Assembly: GCF_002159625.1 (NCBI RefSeq)
Contig: NZ_NFIZ01000017.1
Coordinates: forward strand, 1-47,828
Source: Olsenella sp. An285
GTDB taxonomy: Bacteria; Actinomycetota; Coriobacteriia; Coriobacteriales; Atopobiaceae
Reading direction: 5' to 3'
DNA length: 47,828 bases
Under the pieces are notes generated by a model. It was not told the DNA's origin. It did no database searches and saw only the letters and a list, made by a program, of their open reading frames with translations. The translations under genes and the position numbers were made by a program. Shown here in pieces: positions 11,167 to 30,226 of the stretch; the first letter of the stretch is position 1; each line of letters opens with the position of its first letter.

Positions 11167-11447
11167 TGGATATCACCCAACTTGCTTTCTGTGGAGTCCC
11201 AGGGGCCGAGCACTCCGAACACCCCCCAAAAGACGAAGCCGCCCTCACTGCCGAAGAGAAAGCCTAGGGATGCAGCCAATCTAAAGACTCAGAAGGCAAA
11301 TTCGAAGAACCCCTACCTTGGAAAGGCGAGATTGGCTTCTCTTCGCCTACGACGTCAAGGAGATAAACTCCGTACAAGAGATCCTAGCTACTGTTCCTGC
11401 AAAGTTCACCCGTATCGTTTTCAACACAATCGACCCTTGCAAGTGTC
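11167..11447. other. 281-base gap between manC and the distal glycosyltransferase genes
   Basis: No gene is supported here. A plus-strand frame (11318 onward) is open but has no ribosome-binding site and runs antisense into manC. No strong hairpin or consensus promoter was found on the minus strand. It falls exactly at the step from moderately GC-rich genes (manC, mutase) to the AT-rich distal cassette and may be a recombination junction. Confidence 0.45.
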
Positions 11448-12797: not shown

Positions 12798-14563
12798 GCG
12801 CTTCCCCCTAGGATCGAATCAAAATCCCCAGTCATTTCGGCAAGAAGAGAACTGGCTCCCTCTCCCGTCTGGGACTTGGCGAAGAGGTACGCTTTTATCT
12901 TCGGCTCTGTCCCGGAAGGGCGGACAATGGCGCTCGAGCCGCCGGAAAGGCGCAGCTCGATGACATTCGAGGGAGGTAAGACCTGGAGAAGGGAGCCAGA
13001 GGGGTTCACCACAGGCATGGGAGCCCCTTGGGCATAGTCGACAACCCGCTCGACAGGGAGTCCCGCAAGCCTAGTGGGTGGATTCTCTCGAAGACGTCGC
13101 ATGACAACGGACATGCTCGCAGTGCCGGCAGGGCCCTCGTAGGCCCTGGAGAGGGAAGAACCCGCCCAGAATCCGTAGCGTTTGTAAAGAAGCCGCAGCG
13201 CCTCAAAGAGGTCGAAGCCCTTACGCTTCCAGTGGGCAACCAACTCGCAGGCAAGAACAGATGTGACAACTGCGTCTTTATCGCGGGTGTAAGTGCCAGC
13301 AAGATAGCCGTAGGACTCCTCGAAGCCGAAGAGGAAGTCCGCTCCGCGCCCTTCGGACTCGAGGAGGCTAATCTGCTCCCCAATGAACTTGAAGCCAGTG
13401 AGCGTTCGTCGCAGCTCAAAGCCGTAATCCCTAGCGAGATCGTTCGCCATGGGAGCTGAGACTACAGTTGTGCAAGCAACCTTTCTAGCGAGCTCCGCGC
13501 CACCTCCCACGGCCTTCTCTGCTAGGAAGTCGAGTAGAAGTAGACCGAGCTCGTCACCAGAGAGCGGAGAGGGTTTCCCTCCGTGTGGCACGGCAATACC
13601 CAGCCGGTCGCAGTCTGGGTCGGTGGCGAGAAGAAGGTCGGCACCGATCTTCGCACAGAGTTCGAGGCCCAGTGTTAGCGCTAAGCGCTCCTCCGGGTTG
13701 GGCCTAGGGCAGGTCGGAAAGCCTCCGTCCCGAGATGCCTGCTCCTCGACCACACGAAAGTCGGTCACGTCCACGGCGGCAAGTGCCCTCGACACGCACT
13801 CCAGCCCCACGCCATGTAGCGGAGTGTAGGCGACACGCAGGCCTGAGCAATCGATACCAGTAGACTGGGCCGCCGCGCAGGAAATGAACCTTTTTACAAC
13901 GGATTCATCAATGACAAGAGCAAAGCCCCTGTTGACGGCTTCCGCGTAGGGTATCGCCCTGACGTCCTCGAAGGGGTCTAAGACGTCGATTGCATCCTGA
14001 ATCGCCTCCGCCGCAGCAACGGTGATTTGGCAACCGTCTGATCCATACACCTTATAGCCATTGTAAGTCGCGGGGTTATGGCTGGCGGTGATGTTCACCC
14101 CCGCAGAACAGCCAAGCTCGCGGACCGCAAAGCTGAGCGCCGGAGTAGGCTCGACACGCTCATACATGTAAGAGCGGATGCCATTGGCAGCCAAGACAGA
14201 GGCAGTGCGACGGACGAACTCCTCGCTACCATGGCGCGTATCGCGGCAGAGCGCGACCGTCGGGACATCGAAGTTGGAGTTCAGCCAGTTAGCTAGTCCC
14301 TGCGTCGCTCTTCCAACGGTATAGAAGTTCATGCGATTGGGTCCCATACCGAGCTTGCCGCGCAGCCCTCCGGTACCGAATACAAGATCACGGTAGAACG
14401 CGTCCTCGACGAGAGCGACGCCCATTCTCTCGAGCCTCATGCGTTCTGGTCTATCGACACATTCGAGCCATCTCTTGTACCTGCTATCTATATCTCTTCT
14501 CTTTAAACCACTCTCGCTCTTACGGTCCGCAACAATGATCGAGGTCTGAGACAGAGACTTCAT
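12794..14563 (-). CDS. Alpha-D-phosphohexomutase (phosphomannomutase/phosphoglucomutase)
   Basis: This 589-aa enzyme of the PgcA-like long phosphohexomutase group interconverts hexose 6- and 1-phosphates. Domain marks in order are FGTGGLRGKLGMGPNRMN, the catalytic serine loop ITASHNPATYNGYKVY, the Mg-binding ATDPDCDRLGIAV, the sugar loop GFEESYGYL and the phosphate-binding RPSGTEPKIKAY. Next to manC it most likely supplies mannose-1-phosphate. About 20 extra residues precede the usual start of the family, but the ATG overlaps the upstream stop as ATGA and is the natural start. Confidence 0.9.
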   Translation of the reverse strand: MKSLSQTSIIVADRKSESGLKRRDIDSRYKRWLECVDRPERMRLERMGVALVEDAFYRDLVFGTGGLRGKLGMGPNRMNFYTVGRATQGLANWLNSNFDVPTVALCRDTRHGSEEFVRRTASVLAANGIRSYMYERVEPTPALSFAVRELGCSAGVNITASHNPATYNGYKVYGSDGCQITVAAAEAIQDAIDVLDPFEDVRAIPYAEAVNRGFALVIDESVVKRFISCAAAQSTGIDCSGLRVAYTPLHGVGLECVSRALAAVDVTDFRVVEEQASRDGGFPTCPRPNPEERLALTLGLELCAKIGADLLLATDPDCDRLGIAVPHGGKPSPLSGDELGLLLLDFLAEKAVGGGAELARKVACTTVVSAPMANDLARDYGFELRRTLTGFKFIGEQISLLESEGRGADFLFGFEESYGYLAGTYTRDKDAVVTSVLACELVAHWKRKGFDLFEALRLLYKRYGFWAGSSLSRAYEGPAGTASMSVVMRRLRENPPTRLAGLPVERVVDYAQGAPMPVVNPSGSLLQVLPPSNVIELRLSGGSSAIVRPSGTEPKIKAYLFAKSQTGEGASSLLAEMTGDFDSILGGSA

Positions 14564-15654
14564 ACACGGACCCTCTCGAACAATTCCTCATACCTCTCGG
14601 TCAGCCGCTTGCCCGCGCGGACAATGTCGTAGTCCGCAAAGTCCCCGTTGCAGACCCCCACGCGCCCGCTTGACCTCACCGTGCACAGGACGTCCGCCCA
14701 GAGGTCGGAATCGACTATGGGCAAGAACCGTACGTTGCCTGTCACGTCCACCTCGCGCGTAATCTGATCCGACAGGAGACACGGCAGACCCGAGGCCTGT
14801 GCCTCAACAGAGACGACTGGAAGCCCCTCATAGAGGCTCGGCAAGACAAAGGTGTCGGCGGCGGAGTAGAGCCGCTCGACGTCAGACCTCTGCCCAAGGA
14901 ACTTCACCCGATCAGCGAGACCAAGCTCCGAGACCCGCCTCTCTATGGAGGGCCTTGAGTCGCCCTCCCCCGCGAGCAAGAGGATTGCATCCGGCCTGCG
15001 ACGGGAAGCTTTTGCGAAGGCTTCAATTAGGAAACGGTGGTTCTTCTGCTCCGTGAAGCGGCCCACGTGGAGGACGGCAAGCTGGCCTTCCATGAGCCCC
15101 AATTCGGCACGCACCCTCACGCGGACCCCAGCATCGAATGCAAAGCGCGCGAGATCTATCGCGTTGTAGAGGACCTCGAAGTTCACCCCTCCACCAAAGA
15201 GCCACTCCCCGGCGTAGCGACTGCACGCCATACGGTAGGTGGGATAGACATTAGAGAGGGGTCTAAGCGCCGCCTTCATAGCGTTCCTAACCGGCTCGCC
15301 TCTTCCTGAGGTGGAGTGGCTGTGCGCGATACGCACAAGTACGCCCGCTCTCTTCGCCGCGCACAGCGGGAAGACGGAGAGGGCGTTCACGTGACTGTGG
15401 ACAATCGGCCAGCGCTCCTGGCGGAAGAGGCGCTCGAGCGCACGCATGAAGCGGGGCAGATTCCCGTATCCGGGGACCATGAGGACTCTACCACCCAGCC
15501 CCTCGACCTCGTCGCGCGGGACCATACCCGATCCCTCGCAGACGAGAAGGTCGAACTGCGCTGTCGCACGGTCAACGTGACGGTAGTAGTTCATAACCAC
15601 CTGCTCAACGCCGCCGCCGTCCATGTAGCCCATGACCTGCGCAACACGAATCAT
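14560..15654 (-). CDS. GT4-family glycosyltransferase (EpsF-like)
   Basis: This 364-aa GT-B enzyme shows VMGYMDGGGVEQVVMNYY (glycine loop), WPIVHSHVNALSVFPL, YNAIDLARFAF, LHVGRFTEQKNHRFLIEA, KFLGQRSDVERLYSAAD and the donor signature PSLYEGLPVVSVEAQASGLP. It is homologous along its length to the GT at 6629-7789. It probably adds the second sugar after the initiating transferase, whose start overlaps its own neighbour by 4 bases. The sugar is not determinable. Confidence 0.9.
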   Translation of the reverse strand: MIRVAQVMGYMDGGGVEQVVMNYYRHVDRATAQFDLLVCEGSGMVPRDEVEGLGGRVLMVPGYGNLPRFMRALERLFRQERWPIVHSHVNALSVFPLCAAKRAGVLVRIAHSHSTSGRGEPVRNAMKAALRPLSNVYPTYRMACSRYAGEWLFGGGVNFEVLYNAIDLARFAFDAGVRVRVRAELGLMEGQLAVLHVGRFTEQKNHRFLIEAFAKASRRRPDAILLLAGEGDSRPSIERRVSELGLADRVKFLGQRSDVERLYSAADTFVLPSLYEGLPVVSVEAQASGLPCLLSDQITREVDVTGNVRFLPIVDSDLWADVLCTVRSSGRVGVCNGDFADYDIVRAGKRLTERYEELFERVRV

Positions 15655-16376
15655 CGGCCTCTCCTGTCCCTACCAAACATCGCCCCGAAGGTGGCAAGGA
15701 AGACGCGTATGTCTTCCCTAATGCTTGCGTCGCGGACGTACCGGAGCTCTATTCGCTGTCGCGCGCCGTTCTCGAAAGTCGCCTCGTTCCTGGGACCTGC
15801 CTGCCAGGCGCCGGTGACACCCTGGGGCACGCTGAGCAGAAGCGCGGTGTCGCACCCATATTCGGTGAGCTCATCGTAGGTAATCGCTCGAGGACCGATG
15901 AGGGACATATCGCCTCGAAGCACGTTCAGAAACTGCGGTAACTCATCGAGAGAAGTCGAGCGGATGATACGCCCGAGGCGCGTGATACGCGGGTCGTCCG
16001 TCACCTTGCGCTCACGACGCCACTCGACGAGCTGCTCGGAGCTCAGATACTTCTCGACATCGTCAGCATCGGCGACCATTGAGCGGAACTTGTAAATACT
16101 GAAGGACTTCCCGAGCCTGCCCACACGCTCCTGAGAGTAAATTGGCGAGCCTTTAGTGTCAGCTGCTATCGCCACGGAGAGCAGCGCGCAGGGTATAAGC
16201 CCCACAACGATGGCGACAACACTAAACGTGACGTCGAAGACGCGCTTCACAACACGGTAGCCGAGCGGCCTACAATCTAGCGATTGACAGAGCCCAGCGA
16301 ACTCATCGGTGCCGGGCTTTGGCGCCGTTTCGAGGATGAGGTTCTTCTCTCCACCAACGCAGCCAACCTGGGTCAC
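15651..16376 (-). CDS. Initiating undecaprenyl-phosphate glycosylphosphotransferase
   Basis: This bacterial sugar transferase (WcaJ/WbaP/CpsE type, catalytic domain only) attaches the first sugar-1-phosphate to undecaprenyl phosphate at the membrane. Marks are the hydrophobic hairpin FDVTFSVVAIVVGLIPCALL, SPIYSQERVGRLGKSFSIYK, KFRSMVADAD, ITRLGRIIRSTSLDELPQFL, NVLRGDMSLIGPRA and PQGVTGAWQ. I place the start at GTG 16374-16376, four bases after the loaP stop. A longer frame from TTG 16409 overlaps the loaP coding region and has no usable ribosome-binding site. At about 241 aa it lacks the N-terminal multi-TM domain of long members. Confidence 0.9.
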   Translation of the reverse strand: MTQVGCVGGEKNLILETAPKPGTDEFAGLCQSLDCRPLGYRVVKRVFDVTFSVVAIVVGLIPCALLSVAIAADTKGSPIYSQERVGRLGKSFSIYKFRSMVADADDVEKYLSSEQLVEWRRERKVTDDPRITRLGRIIRSTSLDELPQFLNVLRGDMSLIGPRAITYDELTEYGCDTALLLSVPQGVTGAWQAGPRNEATFENGARQRIELRYVRDASIREDIRVFLATFGAMFGRDRRGR

Positions 16377-16377
16377 A

Positions 16378-16893
16378 TCAAGCGCTCTTTCTGACAATCT
16401 CCAGCCCAACCTTGATCGTCTTGGTTCTGCCGAACATGCGCATGTCCAGGTAGGCCAGCCGCTTGTGACGATCGATCTTGCTGATGAGGGCCTCCTGGCC
16501 CACGAGGGGGCCGTCGGTCACGATGACCTTCTCGCCCTCTATGACGCCCACGCTCATCTCGACCACCTTGTCCAGCGGTTGCAAAAGCGCGGTGAGCCAG
16601 GCAACCTCGTCCTGGCTCAGGGGGATGATTCGCTCGTCGCTCACTCCCAGAAGACGCGTGAACGCCGGGATGCTCGCAAGGCGCTCGGACACGTGCTGGA
16701 TGTCGTTGGTTTTGACGAAGAGGTAGCCGGGAAAGAGCGTCTCTCGCACGCGCCTCCACTGGCCCTCATCGCGGCGCATCACTTCGCGCCGCGGGACGAA
16801 ACAGTCGTCCACGATGTCGTTCAAAAGCTTGTTGATGAGGTCACAGACACGGCTCTCCGTGCCGCCCATAACCTGTATAACATAAAGCGTCAT
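16378..16893 (-). CDS. loaP: LoaP-type NusG paralog, transcription antiterminator
   Basis: This 171-aa protein has an NGN domain (MTLYVIQVMGGTESRVCDLI, then VRETLFPGYLFVKT) and a KOW domain (VGVIEGEKVIVTDGPL, then SKIDRHKRLAYLDM and VGLEIVRKSA). The VGVIEGxxVIVTxGPLxG and KIDRHKR blocks are typical of LoaP rather than housekeeping NusG or RfaH. It should bind RNA polymerase and a leader RNA hairpin and prevent premature termination in the long operon downstream. The start at 16893 has GAGAGGAG six bases upstream; a longer open frame to 17346 lacks this. The next gene starts 4 bases after its stop. Confidence 0.9.
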   Translation of the reverse strand: MTLYVIQVMGGTESRVCDLINKLLNDIVDDCFVPRREVMRRDEGQWRRVRETLFPGYLFVKTNDIQHVSERLASIPAFTRLLGVSDERIIPLSQDEVAWLTALLQPLDKVVEMSVGVIEGEKVIVTDGPLVGQEALISKIDRHKRLAYLDMRMFGRTKTIKVGLEIVRKSA

Positions 16894-17191
16894 GTGCGCT
16901 CCTCTCATGAGCGCCCAGCAAAAGGCGAACAAGACGTTCCCGGCGTGCCGCGCGGACAGCCAACGCACGGCACGCCAAGGCTTCGCCATGGACGGGTCTT
17001 CTCCGCCTTGAGCGACGATATTCATCCCCCGCAAGTCCATCGACAACGCGCCCTTGGCGACGATTGGCGGCCTTACGGATATGCGCCGGCCCGCTCGCGC
17101 GGACCGTTGGAGGCAAGAGCCTCCTTCGTCGAGCTCGTCGTCACGGGGAGGGCGACGGCGAGCCCGGCGAAGGGGCCTCTCGCACCCGGCG
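16894..17191 (-). promoter_or_regulatory. Leader region of loaP and the distal polysaccharide operon
   Basis: This 298-base gap separates cpsB from loaP. It contains a perfect 6-bp stem with tetraloop (17109-17124; in the transcript GGAGGC, UCUU, GCCUCC) and several weaker GC-rich dyads. A weak promoter-like pair, TTGTCG and GAATAT with 17 bases between, lies about 130 bases before loaP. LoaP is known to recognise RNA hairpins in operon leaders, so a target here would make the operon self-regulated. The assignment is inference. Confidence 0.35.
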
Positions 17192-17833
17192 CTAGGGCAC
17201 CCCCGCAGGGAACTCCCTGAGTGCCTGGGCAAGGTGGTCGTAGTGCGCGGGGCGATGGGCGTCGCTCGCCACGCAGCTGTAGAGGCCGCGTTTGAGGAGC
17301 TTCCGCGCGCAGCGGGACGCGGGGTCCAGGAGGCCCCCCGCGACAAAGCCGGCGGATGCCTGGAGCTGGCATCCCAGGTCCACGAGACGCCCCGCGAGCT
17401 CGGGCTTCTTCTGGATGGCGCGATAGCGCTCCGGGTGGGCGATTACCACGGCAAGGCCGCGGCCCTGGAGCTCGAATATGGTGCGCTCGTACACGCGGAA
17501 GTCCGCCTCCGAGCAGCCGAAGTCCAGCTCCAGGAGGAACTCGCCGGTGCCCTGGATGGCAAGGCGCTCCGCCCACTCCTCCGCACCGAGCTCCATGAGC
17601 TTCTGGTGCGCCACCTCAAAGCCCATGGAGAGCGGCATGTTGGTGTGGCGGCAGAGCTCGTGGTAGGCGGACCACATGGACTCGTAGTCGAAGTAGGGAT
17701 CGCGCGCGTGCGGCGTGCAGACGATGCTGGTCACGCCCGCCCTGCGCGCGGCGTCTATCATGGCCAGGCTCATCTCAAGGTCCCTGGCGCCGTCGTCCAC
17801 GCCCGGCAGGATGTGGCTGTGCATGTCCCTCAT
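17192..17833 (-). CDS. CpsB/CapC-type PHP-domain tyrosine-protein phosphatase
   Basis: This 213-aa manganese-dependent phosphatase of the PHP superfamily shows MHSHILPGVDDGARD (metal-binding H-x-H at the N-terminus), VCTPHARDPYFD, GEFLLELDF, VIAHPERYRAI and CVASDAHRPAHY. It should dephosphorylate the tyrosine kinase encoded just upstream and so tune polymerisation and export. The start at 17833 is fixed by GGGAGGA six bases upstream; an upstream extension of the frame is arginine-rich and not credible. It is slightly shorter than the usual 240-255 aa, mostly at the N-terminus. Confidence 0.9.
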   Translation of the reverse strand: MRDMHSHILPGVDDGARDLEMSLAMIDAARRAGVTSIVCTPHARDPYFDYESMWSAYHELCRHTNMPLSMGFEVAHQKLMELGAEEWAERLAIQGTGEFLLELDFGCSEADFRVYERTIFELQGRGLAVVIAHPERYRAIQKKPELAGRLVDLGCQLQASAGFVAGGLLDPASRCARKLLKRGLYSCVASDAHRPAHYDHLAQALREFPAGVP

Positions 17834-17891
17834 GTGGTCCTCCCTTCGCGTGCGATCGTTGGATGCGTCTTTGTGCCGAGGACCCGAGGTC

Positions 17892-18800
17892 CTACTCGTC
17901 TGTGTACGTGCGCGCCTGGTAGTGCGTGCCCACCAGGAACTGCGCCGTGGAGTCCGGCGAGGCCGGTTGGGCACCGGGCGTCACCGTTGGGATCTCGCGC
18001 AGGCCCGCCGGCGAGGGTGCGGCCTCCTGAGGCGCCGTCGTGGGGGCAGCCTTGGCCGGGGCGCGGTCTATGACAACGTCATCGCCCCCGCCGCGGGCGC
18101 CGGAGCCGGCGTCCTTCTCGGCACTGCCGTAGTGGCTGTAGTAGCCGTAGTAGCCATAGCCGTAGCCGCCGCCGCTTGCGTCGCAGTAGTTGAGGACGGT
18201 GCCCACCACATGGGCTCCGGCCTGCTTGAGCTGGGTGTAGGAGGCCACAACGTCGTCCCTGCGAACGTAGTCCTCGCGCACCACGAGCAGCGTGGCGTCT
18301 GCCACGGAGCCCAGGACCGCTGCGTCGACGAAGACGGAGAGCGGCGGGGTGTCCAGCACCACATAGGCGAACTCGCGCCTCAGGGACTTGAGCAGGCCGC
18401 GGAAGCGCTTGGACGAGAGGATGTCCGTGGGGTTGGGGATGTTGGGCTCGCAGTCCAGGAAGTAGAGGTTGGGCGTGGAGGTGCGGACCACGGCCTCGTT
18501 GACGTCGACCTCTCCGGAGAGGACCCCGTAGAGGCCGTGGCGGCAGTGCGCGCCGAGCCTGGGGGCCAGCGAGCGCTTGCGCATGTCGCACTCCATGATG
18601 AGGACGGGCCGGCCGCCGGCGGCGAGCGCCTGGGCGAGGAGCTCCGCCACGAAGGTCTTGCCCTCGTTGGGGATGGTGGAGGCAACGACGATGCTGCAGA
18701 CGGGCTCGTCCACGGAGGCGAAGCGGATGTTTGCGGCGAGGGTCTTGACCGCGTTCTGCACGGCGACCTTGTCCGCGGCGCGACGGCGCTTCTTGGGCAT
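17892..18800 (-). CDS. CpsD/CapB-type bacterial tyrosine kinase
   Basis: This 302-aa cytoplasmic BY-kinase shows a Walker A of the form STIPNEGKTFVAELLAQAL, Walker A' VLIMECDMRKRSL and Walker B YVVLDTPPLSVFVDAA. A tyrosine cluster follows the ATPase domain (GGGYGYGYYGYYSHYGS, about residues 210-226) and is the expected autophosphorylation site. Unusually, about 75 more residues rich in Ala, Pro, Thr and Gly follow it, ending QARTYTDE. It pairs with the Wzz-like membrane adaptor one base upstream. Ribosome-binding site GGGAGG sits before ATG 18800. Confidence 0.9.
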   Translation of the reverse strand: MPKKRRRAADKVAVQNAVKTLAANIRFASVDEPVCSIVVASTIPNEGKTFVAELLAQALAAGGRPVLIMECDMRKRSLAPRLGAHCRHGLYGVLSGEVDVNEAVVRTSTPNLYFLDCEPNIPNPTDILSSKRFRGLLKSLRREFAYVVLDTPPLSVFVDAAVLGSVADATLLVVREDYVRRDDVVASYTQLKQAGAHVVGTVLNYCDASGGGYGYGYYGYYSHYGSAEKDAGSGARGGGDDVVIDRAPAKAAPTTAPQEAAPSPAGLREIPTVTPGAQPASPDSTAQFLVGTHYQARTYTDE

Positions 18801-18801
18801 G

Positions 18802-19461
18802 CTACCTCCCTCCCTTCATGGCGGGGATGCGCCCGATAACGGGGACGTCGAGAAGGGCCTCGATCTCCTCCTGGCTGCGGACCTTGGTGTTGAGCATGTC
18901 CGCCATCACGACGATGGCCACGGCGAGGAAGAGGCCCGCCATGAGGGCCACGGCCACGTAGAGCTTGCGGTTGGGGCCGCTGGGCTCGTCCGAGGCGACG
19001 GCGAGGTCGATGGCATTGACGCTCTCCACGTCCATGACCTCGCGGGCGATGGTGGAGACGTTGTCCACCATGCCGTTGGCGATGTCCGCCGCCACCTGCG
19101 GGTCAGCCCCGGTGACGGAGAGACCGATGACGCGGGAGTCGGTCTCGCTGGTGACGGAGACGGAGTAGCCGGTGAGGTCCTTGAGGCCCAGCTGCTCCGC
19201 GGTCTCGCTCTGGACGCGGTCGCTCGAGAGGAGGGTCGCCACGTCCGTGGAGATCATCTGGGAGGCGGAGAGGTCCGAGTAGAGCGTGGTGTTGCTCACG
19301 GTCTCCTGCTCCACGAGGACGTACATACTCGTGGAGGCGGTGTAGGTGTCGCGCATGAGCACGACGCTGTACAGGCCCATGAGGAGCGCGCACGCCAGGG
19401 GCAGCGCGATCACGAGCTTGAGGTGCTTCCTCAGCAGTTGCAGCAGCTCGAGGAGGGTCAT
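18802..19461 (-). CDS. Wzz/CapA (YveK)-type chain-length regulator and kinase adaptor
   Basis: This 219-aa protein has two transmembrane segments (about residues 16-36, VIALPLACALLMGLYSVVL, and 165-188, LYVAVALMAGLFLAVAIVV) flanking an extracytoplasmic domain. It carries the Wzz start TYTASTSMYVLVEQ. The short cytoplasmic tail (NTKVRSQEEIEALLDVPVIG) ends with the pattern that activates the separate CpsD kinase. It is the first gene of the leftward polysaccharide operon, controls polymer length, and recruits the kinase to the membrane. Confidence 0.9.
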   Translation of the reverse strand: MTLLELLQLLRKHLKLVIALPLACALLMGLYSVVLMRDTYTASTSMYVLVEQETVSNTTLYSDLSASQMISTDVATLLSSDRVQSETAEQLGLKDLTGYSVSVTSETDSRVIGLSVTGADPQVAADIANGMVDNVSTIAREVMDVESVNAIDLAVASDEPSGPNRKLYVAVALMAGLFLAVAIVVMADMLNTKVRSQEEIEALLDVPVIGRIPAMKGGR

Positions 19462-21306: not shown

Positions 21307-22335
21307 TTACTTGCGGGCCTTGTCGAACTCGTCCTTGAAGGAACCGAACATCTTGCCAAGGGAACCGAGCTGCTTGCCGGCTGCCTTGGCCACCTTGTCG
21401 CCGGTGGAGGCGGACTTGGGCCTGGGCTTGGCGGCGGGCTTGGGCGCCTGCTTTGCCGCGGACTTCGTCGCGCCTGCGCCCTTGGGCGCGGGGGCGTACG
21501 TCTTGGGCTTCTGACGGCTGGGCTCGGCCGTGGCGGTCTTCTCGGGCAGGCCCTCGACCGGGCGCTCCACGCGCACGTCCGCCGCGCTTATCGCCGGCGC
21601 CTGCTGGACGGGCTCGGGTTCGTCTGCCGTGGCGTCCGCGATCGCGCGCTTGGCCTTGCCCAGGGCGCGGCCCAGCGCGAAGGAGCCCTTGTCCACGGCC
21701 TCCCCCGCGGCGGCGCCGACCTTCTTGCCCACCTGGGAGGCGCCGGCCTTGGCGCGGGCATAGCCCTCGCCCGCCGCGCCGGCGAGGCCGCCGTCGAGCT
21801 CCGGGGCGCGGCCGCCGGTGTCCACGACCATGTAGCCGTCGCGGTAGCCCACGACCATCCCGGGCTCGATCACGAAGGAGCCCAGGAGGGCGCGCGCCAT
21901 GCCGCCGTCGGTGGTGGAGAAGCGCTGGACGCGACCGTTCTTCTCGTCAAACTCTGCGTCGGAGACGTAGCCGAGGGGCTTGCCCTCCACGGTCCTGGCG
22001 TCCATGCCGGACCAGATGATGCAGGAGTCCCAGTCCACGCCCAGGCGACGGACCGCGGCGGCGTCCATGCCGTCCTCGGGCCGCGTGACCATGACGTTGG
22101 CGCCGTCGAGCGCGAAGGAGTCGAGCGCGACGAAGGCGTCGTCACGCTTGACCACTCCCGCGACGTCCGGTCGCTTGACCATGAGGCCGATGACGAGCTT
22201 GCCGCCCGGGGAGAACACGGCGTTGTGCACCTTGCCGAGCTTCTGGAAGCGCTCGGTGACGGTGCCGTCCTTTGCCGTCTTGGGCTTTTTTGGAAGGAGA
22301 ACGCGCCTGCCGACGAGCTCGGAGACTTTGAGCAC
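21307..22335 (-). CDS. PRC-barrel domain protein with basic Ala/Lys/Pro-rich tail
   Basis: This 342-aa protein starts MLKVSELVGRRVLLPKK and has two PRC-barrel-like repeats in the first ~180 residues (GKVHNAVFSPGGKLVIGLMV, then GKPLGYVSDAEFDEKNGRVQ and IEPGMVVGYRDGYMVVDTGG). After that it is low in complexity: an Ala/Gly/Lys amphipathic stretch, then Pro/Lys/Ala repeats ending GSLGKMFGSFKDEFDKARK. PRC barrels bind partner proteins or RNA; the role here is unknown. It lies 2 bases downstream of the YtxH gene and ends at a good terminator, so it is the last gene of a small unit. Confidence 0.75.
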   Translation of the reverse strand: MLKVSELVGRRVLLPKKPKTAKDGTVTERFQKLGKVHNAVFSPGGKLVIGLMVKRPDVAGVVKRDDAFVALDSFALDGANVMVTRPEDGMDAAAVRRLGVDWDSCIIWSGMDARTVEGKPLGYVSDAEFDEKNGRVQRFSTTDGGMARALLGSFVIEPGMVVGYRDGYMVVDTGGRAPELDGGLAGAAGEGYARAKAGASQVGKKVGAAAGEAVDKGSFALGRALGKAKRAIADATADEPEPVQQAPAISAADVRVERPVEGLPEKTATAEPSRQKPKTYAPAPKGAGATKSAAKQAPKPAAKPRPKSASTGDKVAKAAGKQLGSLGKMFGSFKDEFDKARK

Positions 22336-22337
22336 GC

Positions 22338-22787
22338 CTAGGCCTCGGGGGTCTCGTCCTCGTCCACGACCTCAACGTGGACGGCCTCGGCCGCGGTCTC
22401 GCCGGCCTCGGACGGGGCGTCCGCCATGGCGGCCACGCGGTCAGTCACGGTGGTCACGGCGTCCTGCACCTGGGCGGAGGCGTCGGCGACGGCGTCGGAG
22501 AGGGACTCGCGGAGCTGGTCCATGCGCTCGCGGGCGAGGTCGACCTTGGCGCGGAGCTCGTCGGTCTTGGCGTCGACGGTGGGACGGAAGTCGTTGATCT
22601 TGTCGGTCACGACGCCGGCACCACGCTCGTAGGTGTCAACGGCGGAGTCCCAGGCGTCGTTCATGGCATCAGCGGCCATGGCGCGGCTCTCGGCACCGGA
22701 GCGCGGGGCGAGCATGAGGCCGGCGACGACACCGGTCGCGGCGCCGAAGATGCTGCCAAGGATGAAACCGACGGTCTTCTTGTTCAT
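22338..22787 (-). CDS. YtxH-like membrane-anchored protein
   Basis: This 149-aa protein starts MNKKTVGFILGSIFGAATGV, a glycine-rich single transmembrane segment followed by LAPRSGAESR, the classic YtxH (gas-vesicle/stress-like) opening. The rest is a long charged amphipathic helix predicted to form coiled coil, ending acidic (VHVEVVDEDETPEA). ATG 22785-22787 with GGAGGA five bases upstream is preferred over an upstream TTG/GTG-type extension. Its function in other bacteria is unclear, but the family is often stress-linked. Confidence 0.85.
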   Translation of the reverse strand: MNKKTVGFILGSIFGAATGVVAGLMLAPRSGAESRAMAADAMNDAWDSAVDTYERGAGVVTDKINDFRPTVDAKTDELRAKVDLARERMDQLRESLSDAVADASAQVQDAVTTVTDRVAAMADAPSEAGETAAEAVHVEVVDEDETPEA

Positions 22788-22833
22788 GTCTTCCTCCTGT
22801 TGGTAGGTGCACATCGGGGCGCGTGGGCGCCGG

Positions 22834-23754
22834 CTAACGAACGAGGTGCGGACGGGGGACGTCCTTCATGCCCCAGGGGTCGTCGTCCTCGAGGTCAGAG
22901 TCGGAATCGGGGTCGGCGGCCTGGTCTTCCGCGGGCTCGGGATCATCTGCGGAATCGGGGTCGTCCGGGTCGTCGAGGTCGTCGAAGTCTTCGGCGGAAT
23001 CGGCGTCTGCCGCGGGCTCCGGCTCTTCGAGGTCGTCAACGGGCTCGTCGACGGGCTCGAGGTCCTTCTCGGCCTCGTCTGCCACGGGCTCGGTCACGGC
23101 AGTGTCGGAGAGGTCGTCCGCCTCGTCCCAGTCCGCGGGCTCGTCGTCCGCGGGCTCGTCCTCGGTGATGGGCTCGTAGGCCGCGTCGACGAACTCGGTC
23201 ACGACGGTCTCCTCCTCGTAAGGGAGCTCATCGTCGAAGGGGTCGTCGAGGGGCTCGGAATCATCCTCCGGCTCCGACTCCGGCTCGCCGAGGCTGTCCA
23301 CGAGGTCGACCAGGCCGCTCGCAATGGCCTCGACGTCGGGCTCCGGCTCGCCGCCGCCCGAGTACGCCCACTGGAGAATCCAGACGGCGCTCGAGAGGGC
23401 GCCGGCCACGAGGACGTCGTCCGGGCAGGCGAGGGTAATCTTGTAGGTGCGCTCGTCAACCTCGACGGTCTGGCCGCCCGTCACGTCGCCGGCGGCATTC
23501 GTCTGAGCGAGGAGCTCCACCGTCACGTGCTCGAGCAGGTGCGCGAGCTCGGTGTCCGCGACGACCTCACCAAAGCTGGAGGAGGCGTCGCCCAGGCACA
23601 TGTGGTCGACGAGGCCGGGCATGATCTCGAGCACGTGCTCGGTGCCCTCGGGGTCCTCGCTGGTCAGCAGGGGCGCATCGGGGGAGACGGCAACCACGGC
23701 CTCGAGGTTCCTCGGCCCCACCGTGACCTTGATGATGTCAAAAAGCTGGGCCAT
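22834..23754 (-). CDS. Orphan cyanophycin-synthetase-N-like domain with long acidic tail
   Basis: This 306-aa protein begins at ATG 23754 (AGAGGAG five bases upstream). Residues about 10-125 read like the N-terminal domain of cyanophycin synthetase: NLEAVVAVSPDAPLLTSEDP, then HVLEIMPGLVDHMC, TELAHLLEHVTVELLAQTNA, YKITLACPDD and SAVWILQWAY, matching the family's LPGL-H-C, LAHL-EH-ALELQ and YEE positions. The ATP-grasp and Mur-ligase domains that make cyanophycin are absent. About 160 residues of almost pure Asp/Glu/Pro/Ala/Ser follow (EPESEPEDDSEPLDDPFDD and similar), ending WGMKDVPRPHLVR. The homology is my reading of motifs and the function is unknown. Confidence 0.55.
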   Translation of the reverse strand: MAQLFDIIKVTVGPRNLEAVVAVSPDAPLLTSEDPEGTEHVLEIMPGLVDHMCLGDASSSFGEVVADTELAHLLEHVTVELLAQTNAAGDVTGGQTVEVDERTYKITLACPDDVLVAGALSSAVWILQWAYSGGGEPEPDVEAIASGLVDLVDSLGEPESEPEDDSEPLDDPFDDELPYEEETVVTEFVDAAYEPITEDEPADDEPADWDEADDLSDTAVTEPVADEAEKDLEPVDEPVDDLEEPEPAADADSAEDFDDLDDPDDPDSADDPEPAEDQAADPDSDSDLEDDDPWGMKDVPRPHLVR

Positions 23755-23808
23755 CGAGGCTCCTCTCACTTCCGCCGGGTGTGCGGGCTGGTGACAGTGT
23801 ACCCGTAC

Positions 23809-23814
23809 ATTGTA
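23809..23814 (-). promoter_or_regulatory. -10 box upstream of the acidic-tail gene
   Basis: The minus strand reads TACAATGTACG, close to the TATAATGTACG at the polysaccharide promoter. It is about 55 bases before ATG 23754 and downstream of the CNNM gene stop. No clear -35 box is present. Confidence 0.35.
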
Positions 23815-23835
23815 GTTAAACTGCCGCCGCGGAGC

Positions 23836-25182
23836 CTACTCCTTCGAGGAGTCGTCGCCCTTCTCGCCGTCAGCGTTGTTCTCGCCCGCCTCGGCGGCGG
23901 GCTCGGGCGCCACGACGCGCAGCATCGAGAGTCGGCGGCCGCGCATGGACTGGACGCGGAACTGGTAGTCGTCCTTCTCGATGACGTCGCCGGGGTGGGG
24001 CACCTTGTCCGCGAGCTCCAGGACGAAGCCGGCGATGGTCTCGTACTCCTCGCTGTCCTCGATGGGCCAGCCGAGCTCGATGGCATCGTCGATGGAGAAG
24101 CGGCCGTCCACGAGCCACTCGCGATCGGAAAGCTTGGTGAGGTACTTGTTGTCGGGGTCAAACTCGTCCTCGATCTCTCCCACGACCTCCTCGACGATGT
24201 CCTCAATCGTGATGATGCCGGCGGTGCCGCCGTACTCGTCCACCACGATGACCATCTGGTCGTGGCTGGACTGCATCTCGGAGAGCAGGGGGATGATGTC
24301 CTTGGTGTCGGGCACGAAGTCGGCCGCGCGCACGTGGGACGCCACGGAGTCGGCGGACTTGCCGTCGTCCAGGATGGGGCTGATGAGGTCCTTGATGTGG
24401 GCGATGCCCACGATCCTGTCCACGGACTCGTGGTAGATGGGGATGCGGGAGTAGCCGGTGCGGCGCATGACGGCCATGACCTCGGAGAGCGTGGAGGTGT
24501 CCTCCATCGCGGTCATATCGACGCGCGGGACCATGACCTCGCGGGCGATGGTGTCGCCCATGTCGATGACCTCGTGGATCATCGACTTCTCCTGGTCCGT
24601 GAGCTCGTCGGCGTCCGTGACCATGTACTTGATCTCCTCCTCGGAGACGCTGTCGCGCTCGTCGGCGGACTTGACGCCCAGGAGGGCGGAGAGGCCGTTG
24701 GCGGACTTGGCCGTGAGCCAGACGAGCGGGCGCGCGACGTGCATGAATCCGCGAATGGGGCCAGAGACGGACTTGGCGACGGCCTCGGCGTTGGAGAGTG
24801 CCATGCGCTTGGGCACGAGCTCGCCCACCACGATGGAGAGGTAGGAGACCGCGAGGGTGATGAGGACGGGCGCGAGGGGCTGCGCGATGGACTCGGGCAT
24901 GCCGAGGCTCACGAACCAGCTGCCGAGCGGGTCGGAGAGGCTGGTGCTCGCGAAGGCGGAGGACGCAAAGCCCACAAGGGTGATTGCCACCTGGATGGTA
25001 GCGAGGAACTGCTCCGAGTTGGAGGCGAGGTCGAGGGCGCTGCGTGCTCTGCGGTCACCCTCCTCAGCCTCGGGTTCGAGAACCGCTCGCTTGGCGCTCA
25101 CCACCGCGAGCTCGGACATCGAGAAATAGCCGTTGGCCAGCGTGAGCAGGAAAGTGACCACAATACTTATCGCTACGTCCAT
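23836..25182 (-). CDS. CNNM/CBS-domain (hemolysin C / CorC-like) membrane protein
   Basis: This 448-aa protein of the UPF0053/CNNM family has an N-terminal DUF21 transmembrane domain with about four segments (VVTFLLTLANGYFSMSELAV, ITLVGFASSAFASTSLSD, LITLAVSYLSIVVGELVPKR). A CBS pair follows (about 205-325, MVPRVDMTAMEDTSTLSEVM, YSRIPIYHESVDRIVG) with the acidic DEYGGTAGIITIEDIVEEVV block, and then a CorC_HlyC domain (WLVDGRFSIDDAIELG). Members are linked to Mg or Co ion efflux and to membrane-protein quality control. It ends with an acidic DUF-less tail. The nearest ribosome-binding site (AAGGAGG) is about 14 bases before ATG 25182, further than usual. Confidence 0.88.
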   Translation of the reverse strand: MDVAISIVVTFLLTLANGYFSMSELAVVSAKRAVLEPEAEEGDRRARSALDLASNSEQFLATIQVAITLVGFASSAFASTSLSDPLGSWFVSLGMPESIAQPLAPVLITLAVSYLSIVVGELVPKRMALSNAEAVAKSVSGPIRGFMHVARPLVWLTAKSANGLSALLGVKSADERDSVSEEEIKYMVTDADELTDQEKSMIHEVIDMGDTIAREVMVPRVDMTAMEDTSTLSEVMAVMRRTGYSRIPIYHESVDRIVGIAHIKDLISPILDDGKSADSVASHVRAADFVPDTKDIIPLLSEMQSSHDQMVIVVDEYGGTAGIITIEDIVEEVVGEIEDEFDPDNKYLTKLSDREWLVDGRFSIDDAIELGWPIEDSEEYETIAGFVLELADKVPHPGDVIEKDDYQFRVQSMRGRRLSMLRVVAPEPAAEAGENNADGEKGDDSSKE

Positions 25183-25199
25183 GCGCCTGTGCGCAACCT

Positions 25200-25268
25200 C
25201 CTTGGTCGGGGATCAGATGCGTGCCTTGGTCGGGACGATGGGACCGCCGGCACAATGGGATGATTCTA
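25200..25268 (-). promoter_or_regulatory. Upstream region of the CNNM gene: direct repeats and -10 box
   Basis: CCTTGGTCGGG occurs twice, at 25200-25210 and 25224-25234 (24-base period, about two helical turns). A minus-strand TAGAAT lies at 25263-25268. The repeats fall in the leader of the CNNM transcript and could be a regulator site or part of an RNA structure. No -35 box stands out. Confidence 0.3.
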
Positions 25269-26826: not shown

Positions 26827-28014
26827 TTACGCCATGAGCTCCTTCACGGCGTCGCTCGCGGCAGTGAGCTGCTCGTCCGTGGGAATCCAGTTCACGGCGA
26901 GGGTCTTCACCGGCATCTGGAAGCCCGCGGCCTCGAGCTCCTTGGCCACGTTGTTGGGGCCGAGGGGCGCCCAGCCGTAGGAGCCAAAGGCCAGACCCAC
27001 GCGGTTCTCGTTCTTGGGCGAGAGGCCCTTCATGTACGTGAGGAACGCGGAGACAGTGGGCAGCATCTGGCTGTTGAGGGTGGGCGAGCCCACGCAGACG
27101 TACTTGCAATCCAGGAAGACGTCCATGACGTTGGAGATGTGGTTCTCCTTGAGGTCCATGAGCTGCGCGGGCACGCCGGCGGCGAGGAAGCCGTCGACGA
27201 GCGAGCGAGCGATCTTCTCGGTGGAGTGCCACATGGAGTCGTAGACCACGAGCGCGCGCTCCTTGACGGCGCCGGAGACGAAGTCCTCCTCGTAGGCGCG
27301 CAGGATGTCCTCGACGTGGCTGCGCCAGATGACGCCGTGCGCCGGGCAGATCATGTCGATGGCGTCCGGGCCGAGGCTGCGCACGGCCTTGACCGCCGCG
27401 GTGGCCTGAGCGCGGTACGGCTGCACGATGTTGGCGTAGTACTTGCGCGCCTGGTGCATGATCTCGCAGAGTTCGTTCTCGTCGTCAAAGCGGGCGGAGC
27501 TGGCAAAGTGCTGGCCAAAGGCGTCGTTGGAGAAGAGGATCTTGTCGTAGGCGTCGTAGGTGACCATGTTGTCCGGCCAGTGGACCATCGGGGTCTGGAC
27601 AAAGGCCAGCGTGCGCTTGCCGATGCAGAGGGTGTCGCCGGTCTTGACGCCGTTGTAGCCCAGGTCGCCGAAGTGGGCGGTCATGTTCTTGACGCCCTGC
27701 GGGGCGGAGCTGTAGATCTGGGCGCCCGGGGCGAGCTCGTGGATGACGGGCGTGGAGCCGGAGTGGTCCATCTCCACGTGGTTGGCGATGAGCACCTCAA
27801 TCTTGGACGGGTCAATCACCGAGGAGATGCGCTCGAGCAGCTCGTCCTTGAAGGTGATCTTGGCGGTGTCGATGAGCGTTACCTTCTCGTCGAGGATGAG
27901 GTAGGCGTTGTAGGTGATGCCGGCCTCGGTGGTGTAGCCGTGGAACTCGCGGGCGTTCCAGTCGAGCGCGCCGACCCAGTAGACGTCCGGCTTGATCTGA
28001 ACTGCGGAAAGCAT
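26827..28014 (-). CDS. FprA-type flavodiiron protein (A-type flavoprotein)
   Basis: This 395-aa oxygen (or NO) reductase of anaerobes has an N-terminal metallo-beta-lactamase-like diiron domain. NHVEMDHSG supplies H79, E81, D83 and H84; later ligands are in PMVHWPDNMVTYD, LFSNDAFGQH and MICPAHGVIWRS. The C-terminal flavodoxin domain (from about residue 250) shows ALVVYDSMWHSTEKIARSLV, KYVCVGSPTLNSQMLP and AFGSYGWAP for FMN binding. It detoxifies O2 to water using electrons from a partner not encoded nearby. Start ATG 28014 with AGGAGGA upstream. No rubredoxin domain is fused. It appears to be monocistronic. Confidence 0.95.
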   Translation of the reverse strand: MLSAVQIKPDVYWVGALDWNAREFHGYTTEAGITYNAYLILDEKVTLIDTAKITFKDELLERISSVIDPSKIEVLIANHVEMDHSGSTPVIHELAPGAQIYSSAPQGVKNMTAHFGDLGYNGVKTGDTLCIGKRTLAFVQTPMVHWPDNMVTYDAYDKILFSNDAFGQHFASSARFDDENELCEIMHQARKYYANIVQPYRAQATAAVKAVRSLGPDAIDMICPAHGVIWRSHVEDILRAYEEDFVSGAVKERALVVYDSMWHSTEKIARSLVDGFLAAGVPAQLMDLKENHISNVMDVFLDCKYVCVGSPTLNSQMLPTVSAFLTYMKGLSPKNENRVGLAFGSYGWAPLGPNNVAKELEAAGFQMPVKTLAVNWIPTDEQLTAASDAVKELMA

Positions 28015-28075
28015 GCTGTCCTCCTGTTGCACGACGGCCTCATTTGTTGGCCGACTGGTAGCATTTTACCCAACT

Positions 28076-28150: not shown

Positions 28151-30226
28151 CTACTTCTCGCCGGCGGCGCGGCGGGCGGCGTACTCGGCTGCGAGCTTCT
28201 GCTGGATGTCGTGCGGGACCTGCTCGTAGCCGGAGACCTCCATCTCGAACTCGCCGGTGCCGCGGGAGAGCGAGCGCAGGCGGGTGGCGTAGTCGGTGAC
28301 CTCGGCGTACGGGATGGTGGCGACGACGGTGGTCTCGCCGGCGGTGGCGCCGGTACCGGCCTCCATGCCCTCGACGCGGCCGCGGGAGGCGGAGACGTCG
28401 CCCATCACGGAGCCGGCGTAGCTCTCGGGCACGGTGATGCGCAGGTGCGCCATGGGCTCAAGCAGAACGGGCTCGGCCTGGTCGACGGCCTTCTGGAAGC
28501 CGATGCGCGCGGCGGTCTTGAACGCCATCTCGTTGGAGTCGACGGGGTGGTAGGAGCCCTCGTAGACGGCGACCTTGACGTCGATCATCGGGTAGCCGGC
28601 GAGCACGCCCTCGCGCATGGTCTCCTGGACGCCCTTGTCGATGGCCGGGATGAAGCCGCGCGGGATGTGGCCGCCCACGACCTCGTCGGCGAACTCGTAG
28701 CCGGCGCCCGGGTTGGGCTCGATGCGCAGCCAGCAGTCGCCGTACTGACCGGCGCCACCGGTCTGCTTCTTGTGACGGCCCTGGGCGGAGGCAACGCGGC
28801 GGATGGTCTCGCGATACGGAATCTTGAGCGCCACGGTGTGAGCGGTGATGCCGGCGCGGTCCTCGAGGCGGTCAAGAAGGACGCTGACCTGCGCCTCGCC
28901 GATGGCGGAGATGACGGTCTGGCCGGTGTCCTCGTCGCGCTCGACCTTGAGGGTGGGATCGGCGTCCGCGGACTTCTCCAGGAAGGCGTAGAGCTTGCCC
29001 TCGGTGCCGCGCGCGTCGGGCTCGATGGCGATGCGGTAGAGCGAGTTGGGGAAGCGGAACTCGGCGGCCTCGACCTTGCCGGTGACAGAGAGCGTGTCGC
29101 CCGTCATGGCCTCGAGCTTGGGAACCACGACGATGTCGCCGGCGGCCGCGGACTGGACGTCCGTGGTCTCCTTGCCGCACATCTGATAGAGGTGGCCGAG
29201 GCGCTCGGTCTTGCGGGTGCGGGCGTTGGTGAGCTCGATGCCCGGCGTGATGGTACCGGCGAGGACCTTGAGGAAGGAGAGGCGGCCGTTCTGCGGGTCG
29301 TTGAGGGACTTGAAGGCAAAGACCACGGGACGCTCGTCGTCCTCGGAGATGTCGAGCTGCTCGCCGTTGACCAGCGGGATGCGGCCGAAGTCGGCCATGG
29401 TGGGGAACCACGCCACGGCGGCGTCCATGAAGGAGATGACGCCCTCCTCGCGCACGCAGCTGCCGGAGAAGACGGGCACGAAGACGCGCTCGCGGATGGC
29501 CTTGGCAAGCAGGCCCTCGAGCTCGTCCTGGGTGACCTCCTCGCCCTCGAGGTACTTCATCATGATCTCGTCGTCGGCCTCGACCACGAGCTCGGTGAGC
29601 TGGGCGCGCGCGGCCTCGGCGGCATCGGCGAACTCGGCGGGGACGTCGCCCACCACGGGCTTGCCGTTATCGAGGTGACGGGCCTTCATGTGGACGACGT
29701 CGATGATGCCCTGGAACGCCTCGCCGGAGCCCATCGGGATGGTCACGGCACCGAGGTTGGAGCCAAAGCGGTCCTGCAGCGCGGCCATGGCCACGTCAAA
29801 GTCCGCATCCGGGCGGTCGAGGCGGTTGATGAAGAGCGCGCGGGCGAGGGAGAGGTCCTCGGCCGCGTACCACAGACGGGTGGTGATGGTGCCCGGGCCC
29901 GAGGCGGCGTCCACGACAAAGACGGCGGTCTCGCAGGCGCTCATGGCCGCGTAGGCGTCACCCACGAAGTCGGGGTAGCACGGAGCGTCGAGCACGTTCA
30001 GGCGCGTACCCTCCCAGGTGATGGGCGCGATGGCGGTGGAGATGGAGAAGCCGCGCTCTCCCTCCTCGCCGTCGTAGTCGAGCGTGGGCTTGGTGCCGGC
30101 GTGGCCGCCCAGACGAGTGGTACGCCCCGTCAGGTGGAGCATGGCCTCGGCCAGCATGGTCTTGCCCACGCCGCCTTGGCCCACAAGGACCACGTTCTTA
30201 ACCTTCTCGGTTCCCTTTGCAGCCAT
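28151..30226 (-). CDS. Elongation factor G-like GTPase with degenerate G motifs
   Basis: This 691-aa protein is collinear with EF-G2-type translation factors: GTPase domain (1-260), domain II (GRLSFLKVLAGTITPGIEL), domains III-V (IGEAQVSVLLDRLED, ITAHTVALKIPYRETI, GGAGQYGDCWLRIEP, RGFIPAIDKGVQE, MEAGTGATAGETTVVATIPY). Motif G1 is intact (GQGGVGKT). G3 reads DAPCYPDF where DTPGxxDF is expected, so the switch-II glycine is Cys, and G4 reads NRLD instead of NKxD. The paralog is therefore probably not the main translocase; roles in ribosome rescue or recycling or in stress are possible. Ribosome-binding site GGGAGG lies before ATG 30226. Confidence 0.9.
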   Translation of the reverse strand: MAAKGTEKVKNVVLVGQGGVGKTMLAEAMLHLTGRTTRLGGHAGTKPTLDYDGEEGERGFSISTAIAPITWEGTRLNVLDAPCYPDFVGDAYAAMSACETAVFVVDAASGPGTITTRLWYAAEDLSLARALFINRLDRPDADFDVAMAALQDRFGSNLGAVTIPMGSGEAFQGIIDVVHMKARHLDNGKPVVGDVPAEFADAAEAARAQLTELVVEADDEIMMKYLEGEEVTQDELEGLLAKAIRERVFVPVFSGSCVREEGVISFMDAAVAWFPTMADFGRIPLVNGEQLDISEDDERPVVFAFKSLNDPQNGRLSFLKVLAGTITPGIELTNARTRKTERLGHLYQMCGKETTDVQSAAAGDIVVVPKLEAMTGDTLSVTGKVEAAEFRFPNSLYRIAIEPDARGTEGKLYAFLEKSADADPTLKVERDEDTGQTVISAIGEAQVSVLLDRLEDRAGITAHTVALKIPYRETIRRVASAQGRHKKQTGGAGQYGDCWLRIEPNPGAGYEFADEVVGGHIPRGFIPAIDKGVQETMREGVLAGYPMIDVKVAVYEGSYHPVDSNEMAFKTAARIGFQKAVDQAEPVLLEPMAHLRITVPESYAGSVMGDVSASRGRVEGMEAGTGATAGETTVVATIPYAEVTDYATRLRSLSRGTGEFEMEVSGYEQVPHDIQQKLAAEYAARRAAGEK

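Follow-up and report, generated by a model that had tools for sequence, protein, structure and literature searches.

A free-standing, predicted metallohydrolase of the cyanophycin synthetase N-domain family with an acidic tail in Coriobacteriia

Introduction

Why would a bacterium keep one domain of cyanophycin synthetase (CphA) as a gene of its own, with a long acidic extension behind it? This question was raised by a single ORF in the window, i.e. the whole stretch of 47,828 nucleotides analysed here, to which all coordinates refer. An earlier note, made from the letters of this DNA, had described the product as an orphan N domain, had ascribed to that domain a role in positioning the growing polymer, and had suggested that the tail might act as a primer or as a mimic of the polymer.

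Most CphA1 N domains hold a hidden metallopeptidase site, Cx19HxxEH, that cuts cyanophycin into primers (PMC9262961), and the full motif is found in 83% of CphA1s (nr70) (PMC9262961). In SuCphA1, C59, H79 and H83 bind a metal, tentatively zinc, E82 is the base, and H83 is surrounded by H57, F67 and E87; the active-site residues were established by mutation and cryo-EM, and the extracted N domain, carrying two solubilising changes, was active in trans (PMC9262961). The site is slow and has no transition-state residue (PMC9262961). It is also not present in every homologue: TmCphA1 has none of the four motif residues and CphA2 is without the motif (PMC9262961). A role confined to positioning the polymer leaves out this endo-cyanophycinase active site, the residues of which are kept in the window protein (see below). 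No description of a stand-alone CphA N domain was found among the titles and abstract openings of the open-access literature, and the terms Coriobacter, N domain, stand-alone and orphan do not occur in the main text of PMC10206079.

Results

The window protein is a member of the CphA N-domain family that lacks the synthetase domains. The features of the locus are presented in Table 1. A purine-rich stretch, GAGAGGAG, lies ahead of the ATG of the ORF. Its product passed the curated Pfam cut-off of PF18921 (Cyanophycin_syn, the CphA N-terminal domain) across residues 35–127 (E = 1.8e-8; 34.8 bits versus a cut-off of 27) and is a member of that family. The full-length synthetase models TIGR02068 and PRK14016 aligned through their own N-terminal part alone, the first 134–153 model positions, and remained far under their cut-offs (TIGR02068, 35.5 bits versus 850). 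When the PDB was searched with the single sequence, the top three of six matches were CphA chains (E = 0.0037–0.043); when it was searched with a profile of 117 family sequences, CphA chains alone were returned (7wac, 2.4e-15; 7lg5, 1.7e-12; 7txv, 5.3e-11). Taken together, these matches to the CphA N domain go well beyond chance. A Pfam scan of the protein at E values up to 1 gave PF18921 only, in agreement with the earlier reading that no ATP-grasp or ligase domain follows the N domain. No signal peptide was seen by eye, which suggests a cytosolic location. An 818-aa antisense open frame (22807–25263, forward strand) spans this gene and the CNNM gene and looks like a high-GC shadow.

Table 1 Features of the stand-alone CphA-N locus and its immediate neighbours.
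Feature	Coordinates	Strand	Basis
Stand-alone CphA-N-type predicted metallohydrolase with acidic tail	22834..23754	-	ORF, 306 aa plus stop; Pfam
Folded domain, residues 1–157	23284..23754	-	AlphaFold; fold match to CphA1 N domains
H51-x-C53, corresponding to SuCphA1 H57 and metal ligand C59	23596..23604	-	Alignment to 7lg5
H72-L-L-E75-H76, inverted zinc motif HxxEH, corresponding to SuCphA1 H79, E82 and H83	23527..23541	-	Alignment
E80, corresponding to SuCphA1 E87 (second-shell H-bond network)	23515..23517	-	Alignment
Acidic, proline-rich disordered linker, residues 158–291	22882..23283	-	pLDDT, alignment, dN/dS
Conserved C-terminal peptide, residues 292–306, DPWGMKDVPRPHLVR	22837..22881	-	Motif counts
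YtxH-like small membrane protein, next gene downstream	22338..22814 (start possibly 22786)	-	PF12732, 2.2e-19
PRC-barrel protein with basic C-terminal tail	21307..22335	-	PF05239, 2.3e-6
CNNM/CorC transporter-family gene, directly upstream	23836..25182	-	PF01595, 2.7e-44

The predicted structure gave the same assignment. AlphaFold returned a confident model for residues 1–142 (pLDDT 91.7, pTM 0.90), and this model matched the motif-bearing CphA1 N domains (SuCphA1, 7lg5 and 7txv; TeCphA1, 7wac and 7wae) with Z scores of 16.1–16.7 over 132–134 residues at 22–24% identity, compared with a Z score of 6.6 for the best non-CphA chain. The likeness to the CphA N domain that had been noticed in the order of sequence motifs was therefore borne out by both fold comparison and profile search. 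Its proposed extent was only partly right; the domain does lie at the N-terminus, but instead of ending at residues 125–130 the folded part reaches to about residue 157, since the full-length model remained ordered up to that point with helices at 113–131 and 141–156. The homologues that have lost the catalytic motif were also recovered, with Z scores of 13.7 for TmCphA1 and 12.1–12.6 for CphA2.

Aligned to 7lg5, the window protein carries H51, C53, F61, H72, E75, H76 and E80 at the positions of the SuCphA1 site, so that the second-shell residues H57, F67 and E87 have equivalents as well as the predicted ligands and base. H72, E75 and H76 sit on the helix 70–84 of the model, in the manner of the HxxEH helix of the M16 inverzincins, and the spacing from the Cys to the first His is x18 versus x19 in CphA1. 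Conservation was scored in 140 aligned relatives, 106 from the order of the window and 34 from the rest of the class, a set that includes some near-copies (the same species drawn from two collections). C53, H72, E75, H76, P46 and T68 were identical in all 140, and the H51 position was His in 139. Second-shell positions were slightly more variable, with Phe in 125/140 at F61 and Glu in 121, Asp in 17, Gln in one and Ser in one at E80. The same columns, including H72, E75 and H76, were invariant after thinning at 88% identity (alignment A1, 117 rows including the window; truncation at a contig end led to the exclusion of one thinned row). Because the motif formed part of the patterns or profiles used to gather the relatives, these counts are biased and motif-less copies could be missed; nevertheless, HxC...HxxEH was present in 28/28 further relatives (19/19 and 9/9) recovered with A1 from class genomes that were Pfam-negative. 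Pairwise dN/dS values of 0.06–0.25 (six pairs) indicated purifying selection on the domain.

An unlikely alternative is that the protein is a non-catalytic scaffold or regulator, zinc-binding or apo, within a YtxH/PRC-barrel membrane complex, the C-H-H-E residues forming a structural or sensory metal site. Its neighbour genes are largely of membrane or scaffold type, and active metallopeptidases rarely use Cys ligands, which are commoner in structural zinc sites (PMC9262961); both points fit that alternative. However, E75, which aligns with the general base and is not among the predicted metal ligands, is just as invariant as they are. Moreover, folding alone fails to explain the invariance of the motif, because TmCphA1 and CphA2 keep the fold without it.

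In LuxS (S-ribosylhomocysteine lyase) the metal site is likewise formed by HxxEH plus a Cys. LuxS chains were the first non-CphA matches of the window model in Foldseek (E = 0.04–0.08, probability 0.30–0.35), which, together with the changed side chains at the cyanophycin contacts (described below), could be taken to indicate a small-molecule metallohydrolase with LuxS-like chemistry and no peptidase activity. These matches were weak (TM 0.24–0.25), LuxS chains were absent from the 50 VIA matches listed, and the LuxS family (PF02664) had no Pfam match in the protein. A true LuxS is encoded in the window genome, as in 28/99 class genomes, so the window protein is not a LuxS replacement. We regard LuxS-like chemistry as improbable, more so than the scaffold.

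Other metallohydrolases have sites that resemble this one. The M16 peptidases or inverzincins (pitrilysin, insulin-degrading enzyme) have the HxxEH active-site motif in common with the window protein, which is much smaller, and CphA1 N domains are distantly related to them (PMC9262961). Their third ligand is a downstream Glu, Asp or His versus the upstream Cys of CphA1 (PMC9262961). In the window family this upstream Cys (C53) is the invariant residue aligned with the CphA metal ligand. Peptide deformylase also has C-H-H metal ligands in a geometry similar to that of CphA1, but differs from CphA1 in motif orientation and fold (PMC9262961). Neither M16 nor deformylase chains were among the matches listed in the Foldseek and VIA fold searches.

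While the catalytic residues were retained, most of the residues that contact cyanophycin were not. At the R70 position, Arg was found in all 12 actinobacterial CphA N domains compared and in 0/140 relatives, where it was replaced by Val (63), Glu (35), Cys (25), Ala (11), Ser (5) or Ile (1), with Glu in each of the 34 deep relatives. The S60 position was Ser in 12/12 CphA domains versus 2/140 relatives. E90 was Ala in 100/140 relatives, but this column holds Arg or Gln in the 12 actinobacterial CphA proteins (Arg in 11/12), and thus E90 is not general in CphA and says little. Only T101 (Thr in 138/140) and Y110 (Tyr or Phe in 119/140) were largely retained among the substrate contacts. The changes at R70 and S60 suggest the same chemistry on a different substrate, and because just two contacts are largely kept, even a specificity for peptide bonds is putative.

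We further investigated the occurrence of the gene across the class, taken as Coriobacteriia because the named relatives of the window protein belong to Atopobiaceae, Olsenella, Thermophilibacter and Collinsella. Pfam detected PF18921 in 256/296 class genomes, with one match per positive genome and open frames of 114–701 aa among the matches listed; frames of this size are too short for CphA. Searching 40 Pfam-negative class genomes with the family profile A1 recovered the gene in 19/20 and 9/20 of them, giving a total of 284/296 genomes, so 'unusual', the word used previously, does not describe it. It is also not universal, since 12/296 genomes (two from the order of the window and ten from the rest of the class) had no match to either profile, and all three genomes of one family were without a match.

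A separate ligase in the genome had been suggested as something to look for. No full-length CphA was found in any of the 296 class genomes, whether judged by E value (1e-150) or by the score cut-off, with three candidates scored per genome among the matches listed. Within the window genome, CphA was likewise not found over the cut-off; TIGR02068 gave sub-cut-off matches on ligase-type pieces and on the stand-alone gene itself. Cyanophycinase was found over the cut-off in 0/99 class genomes, although ten weak matches at 1e-5 occurred among them, none in the window genome. Since neither CphA nor a cyanophycinase over the cut-off was found, these hosts probably lack cyanophycin that could be primed.

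It could still be argued that the protein is a scavenging cyanophycinase, which cuts cyanophycin or beta-Asp-Arg polymer made by other organisms and taken up by the cell, given that its active site corresponds to the endo-cyanophycinase site of CphA1 (PMC9262961). We consider this very unlikely. The protein has no signal peptide by eye, the R70 column is never Arg and the S60 column is almost never Ser, cyanophycinase over the cut-off was absent from all 99 genomes searched, and retention in nearly every class genome is unlike an optional scavenging trait.

At the phylum level, Pfam detected PF18921 in 41/296 sampled genomes, 21 of which belonged to the class. The 20 others scored 113–147 bits; 18 of their frames were at least 924 aa long, and two were 235 and 262 aa. 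With A1, 62/396 genomes matched, including 38 of the class, 20 frames of at least 924 aa, the 235- and 262-aa frames again and, beyond the class, two stand-alone genes (190 and 198 aa). Both of the latter retained C...HxxEH, the second without His at the H57 position. One outside-class copy from the same phylum (locus L221, 3451–4708) adjoins, by eye, holin-X-like and small-membrane-protein-like genes on the opposite strand. Plasmid and phage collections gave no tblastn match for the stand-alone gene, and an origin from either was rejected. In an unrooted tree (85 rows), one long branch (2.14, support 100/100) separated the 12 CphA N domains from the stand-alone rows; it attached beside two deep rows (98/81, 99/90), possibly through long-branch attraction. 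As the tree is unrooted, it gives no direction of descent, including for a recent origin from an actinobacterial CphA through loss of the G and M domains.

The tail is strongly acidic and predicted to be disordered. Of the 173 aa past residue 133, 44 are Asp and 30 are Glu (net charge -70), and pLDDT in the full-length model was about 48–61 per ten-residue block from residue 161. The earlier description of an acidic, disordered tail holds for most of its length, but not to the end, as the protein closes with a slightly net-basic, conserved peptide (...VPRPHLVR in the window). Among Atopobiaceae and Collinsella, tails ranged from 40 to about 410 aa in uncut loci, several of the Collinsella type having FGGAAA near the end, and the linker was variable across 36 aligned sequences. 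In contrast, the 34 deep relatives had at most 45 residues past position 133 and no strong acidic bias. Tail dN/dS was 0.41–0.65 in the same six pairs used for the domain; the 15-residue end gave 0–0.82 and is too short for a firm value. A PxPxxVR-type end was present in 46 of 86 uncut tails of at least 40 aa and RGP[RS]MSxKI[IFL] in a further 10, with neither in 30, compared with a mean of 0.12 and a maximum of 2 in 1000 residue shuffles, both patterns having been composed after inspection of the tails. Docking of the peptide on its own domain was not seen in the full-length model, where the last 16 residues had pLDDT values of 49–61.

Rapid change along the linker and retention of its terminal peptide are what would be expected of a tether that carries a docking element, and not of a primer; judging from its sequence, the tail is probably such a tether in many members of Atopobiaceae and Collinsella, with the peptide as the candidate docking element. 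The proposal of a polymer-positioning domain with a primer-like or polymer-mimicking tail, which can draw on the loose binding of cyanophycin by CphA1 N domains (PMC9262961) and on an Asp-rich tail, is the least probable of all, given that no CphA or cyanophycinase was found, that R70 is replaced, and that the tail is missing in deep relatives that have the active site and is variable in length and sequence except at its very end.

The YtxH and PRC-barrel neighbours named in the earlier note were both confirmed by Pfam (Table 1), and they recur. Across 141 loci, PRC-barrel (99), YtxH (89) and CNNM (81) clusters were found near the gene using a crude ORF caller, and YtxH and PRC-barrel genes were both downstream in 78. 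In 26 of 60 loci (34 outside and 26 within the order of the window), the downstream genes included both an aminotransferase of class I/II and an ATP-grasp ligase of the Ddl type, versus 0 of 80 close relatives; where present, they mostly lay between the CphA-N gene and YtxH. All 12 genomes checked had two Ddl-type ligases of at least 98 bits; in seven of them one was the neighbour of the CphA-N gene, and it was the lower-scoring of the two every time. The genes upstream in the deep loci encode UPF0182, a DPBB (RlpA-like) protein and a small membrane protein that matches holin-X below the cut-off. Loci L132–L191 show a recurrent block of UPF0182, DPBB/RlpA-like, holin-X-like, small membrane protein, CphA-N, aminotransferase, Ddl paralogue, YtxH, PRC-barrel and GNAT genes. 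As context, and resting on neighbours called by a crude ORF caller, this arrangement points to the cell envelope.

The PRC-barrel protein ends in a basic tail rich in Lys, Ala and Pro (net +14 across its last 157 aa). Electrostatic pairing of this tail with the acidic one was considered and rejected; charge covariation was apparent across 96 filtered loci (rho = -0.53), but was not significant within the 62 close loci (L002–L081 and the window; rho = -0.19, P = 0.13), which leaves the pairing unsupported. Other genes of the window also recurred near the CphA-N gene, including clusters for an ODP-type metallo-beta-lactamase and flavodoxin protein (26830–28032; 24/141 loci) and an EF-G-type protein (28154–30226; 37/141 loci). 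On the reverse strand at 4102–19461, Pfam identified a long polysaccharide locus, encoding an O-antigen ligase, four glycosyltransferases, a pyruvyl transferase, NTP_transferase/MannoseP_isomer, PGM/PMM, a bacterial sugar transferase, AAA_31 and Wzz, along with a NusG-family protein at 16378–17346. GC content was about 50% at 2–12 kb of the window versus 60–72% elsewhere.

Discussion

We propose, with a probability of roughly two in three, that the window protein is a stand-alone, cytosolic zinc metallohydrolase of the CphA N-domain family that acts on a peptide or isopeptide other than cyanophycin. By analogy with SuCphA1, from which metal binding, catalysis and peptide-bond chemistry are all carried over, C53, H72 and H76 would hold the metal as C59, H79 and H83 do, and E75 would activate water for cleavage of a peptide or isopeptide bond as E82 does. 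The most plausible place for its substrate would be the inner side of the cell envelope, although this is a guess. The conserved C-terminal peptide probably docks the enzyme on a partner, the identity of which is likewise a guess, with YtxH and the PRC-barrel protein as candidates. The disordered, mostly acidic linker would be an addition made in Atopobiaceae, the family of the window, and in Collinsella.

Compared with the CphA1 N domain, the window protein belongs to the same sequence family and has the same predicted fold and the same metal and catalytic residues. It differs in being free-standing, without the ATP-grasp (G) and Mur-ligase (M) domains and in a host in which no CphA was found, in the replacement of the R70 and S60 contacts, in the Cx18HxxEH spacing and in the added acidic tail.

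On a wider view, which we put forward as evenly balanced between right and wrong, Coriobacteriia would possess a near class-wide, single-copy, free-standing version of the third enzyme of CphA1, a minimal C-H-H inverted-zinc (iso)peptidase of about 140–160 aa with a role other than cyanophycin metabolism, which might lie in the peptide metabolism of the envelope, together with an aminotransferase and a second Ddl-type ligase. The CphA N domain would then derive from an enzyme of this type, and the Atopobiaceae version would be tethered through an acidic linker bearing a docking peptide.

The profile libraries searched give this gene a cyanophycin-synthetase name only, and the reading proposed here would supply a testable function for a gene found in nearly all sampled class genomes, including those of common gut bacteria (Olsenella, Collinsella). 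A free-standing relative with its site intact, in hosts where no cyanophycin enzymes were detected, shows that the domain is able to stand and be maintained as a protein in its own right, and offers a small system in which the ancestral or alternative chemistry of the CphA N domain may be tested.
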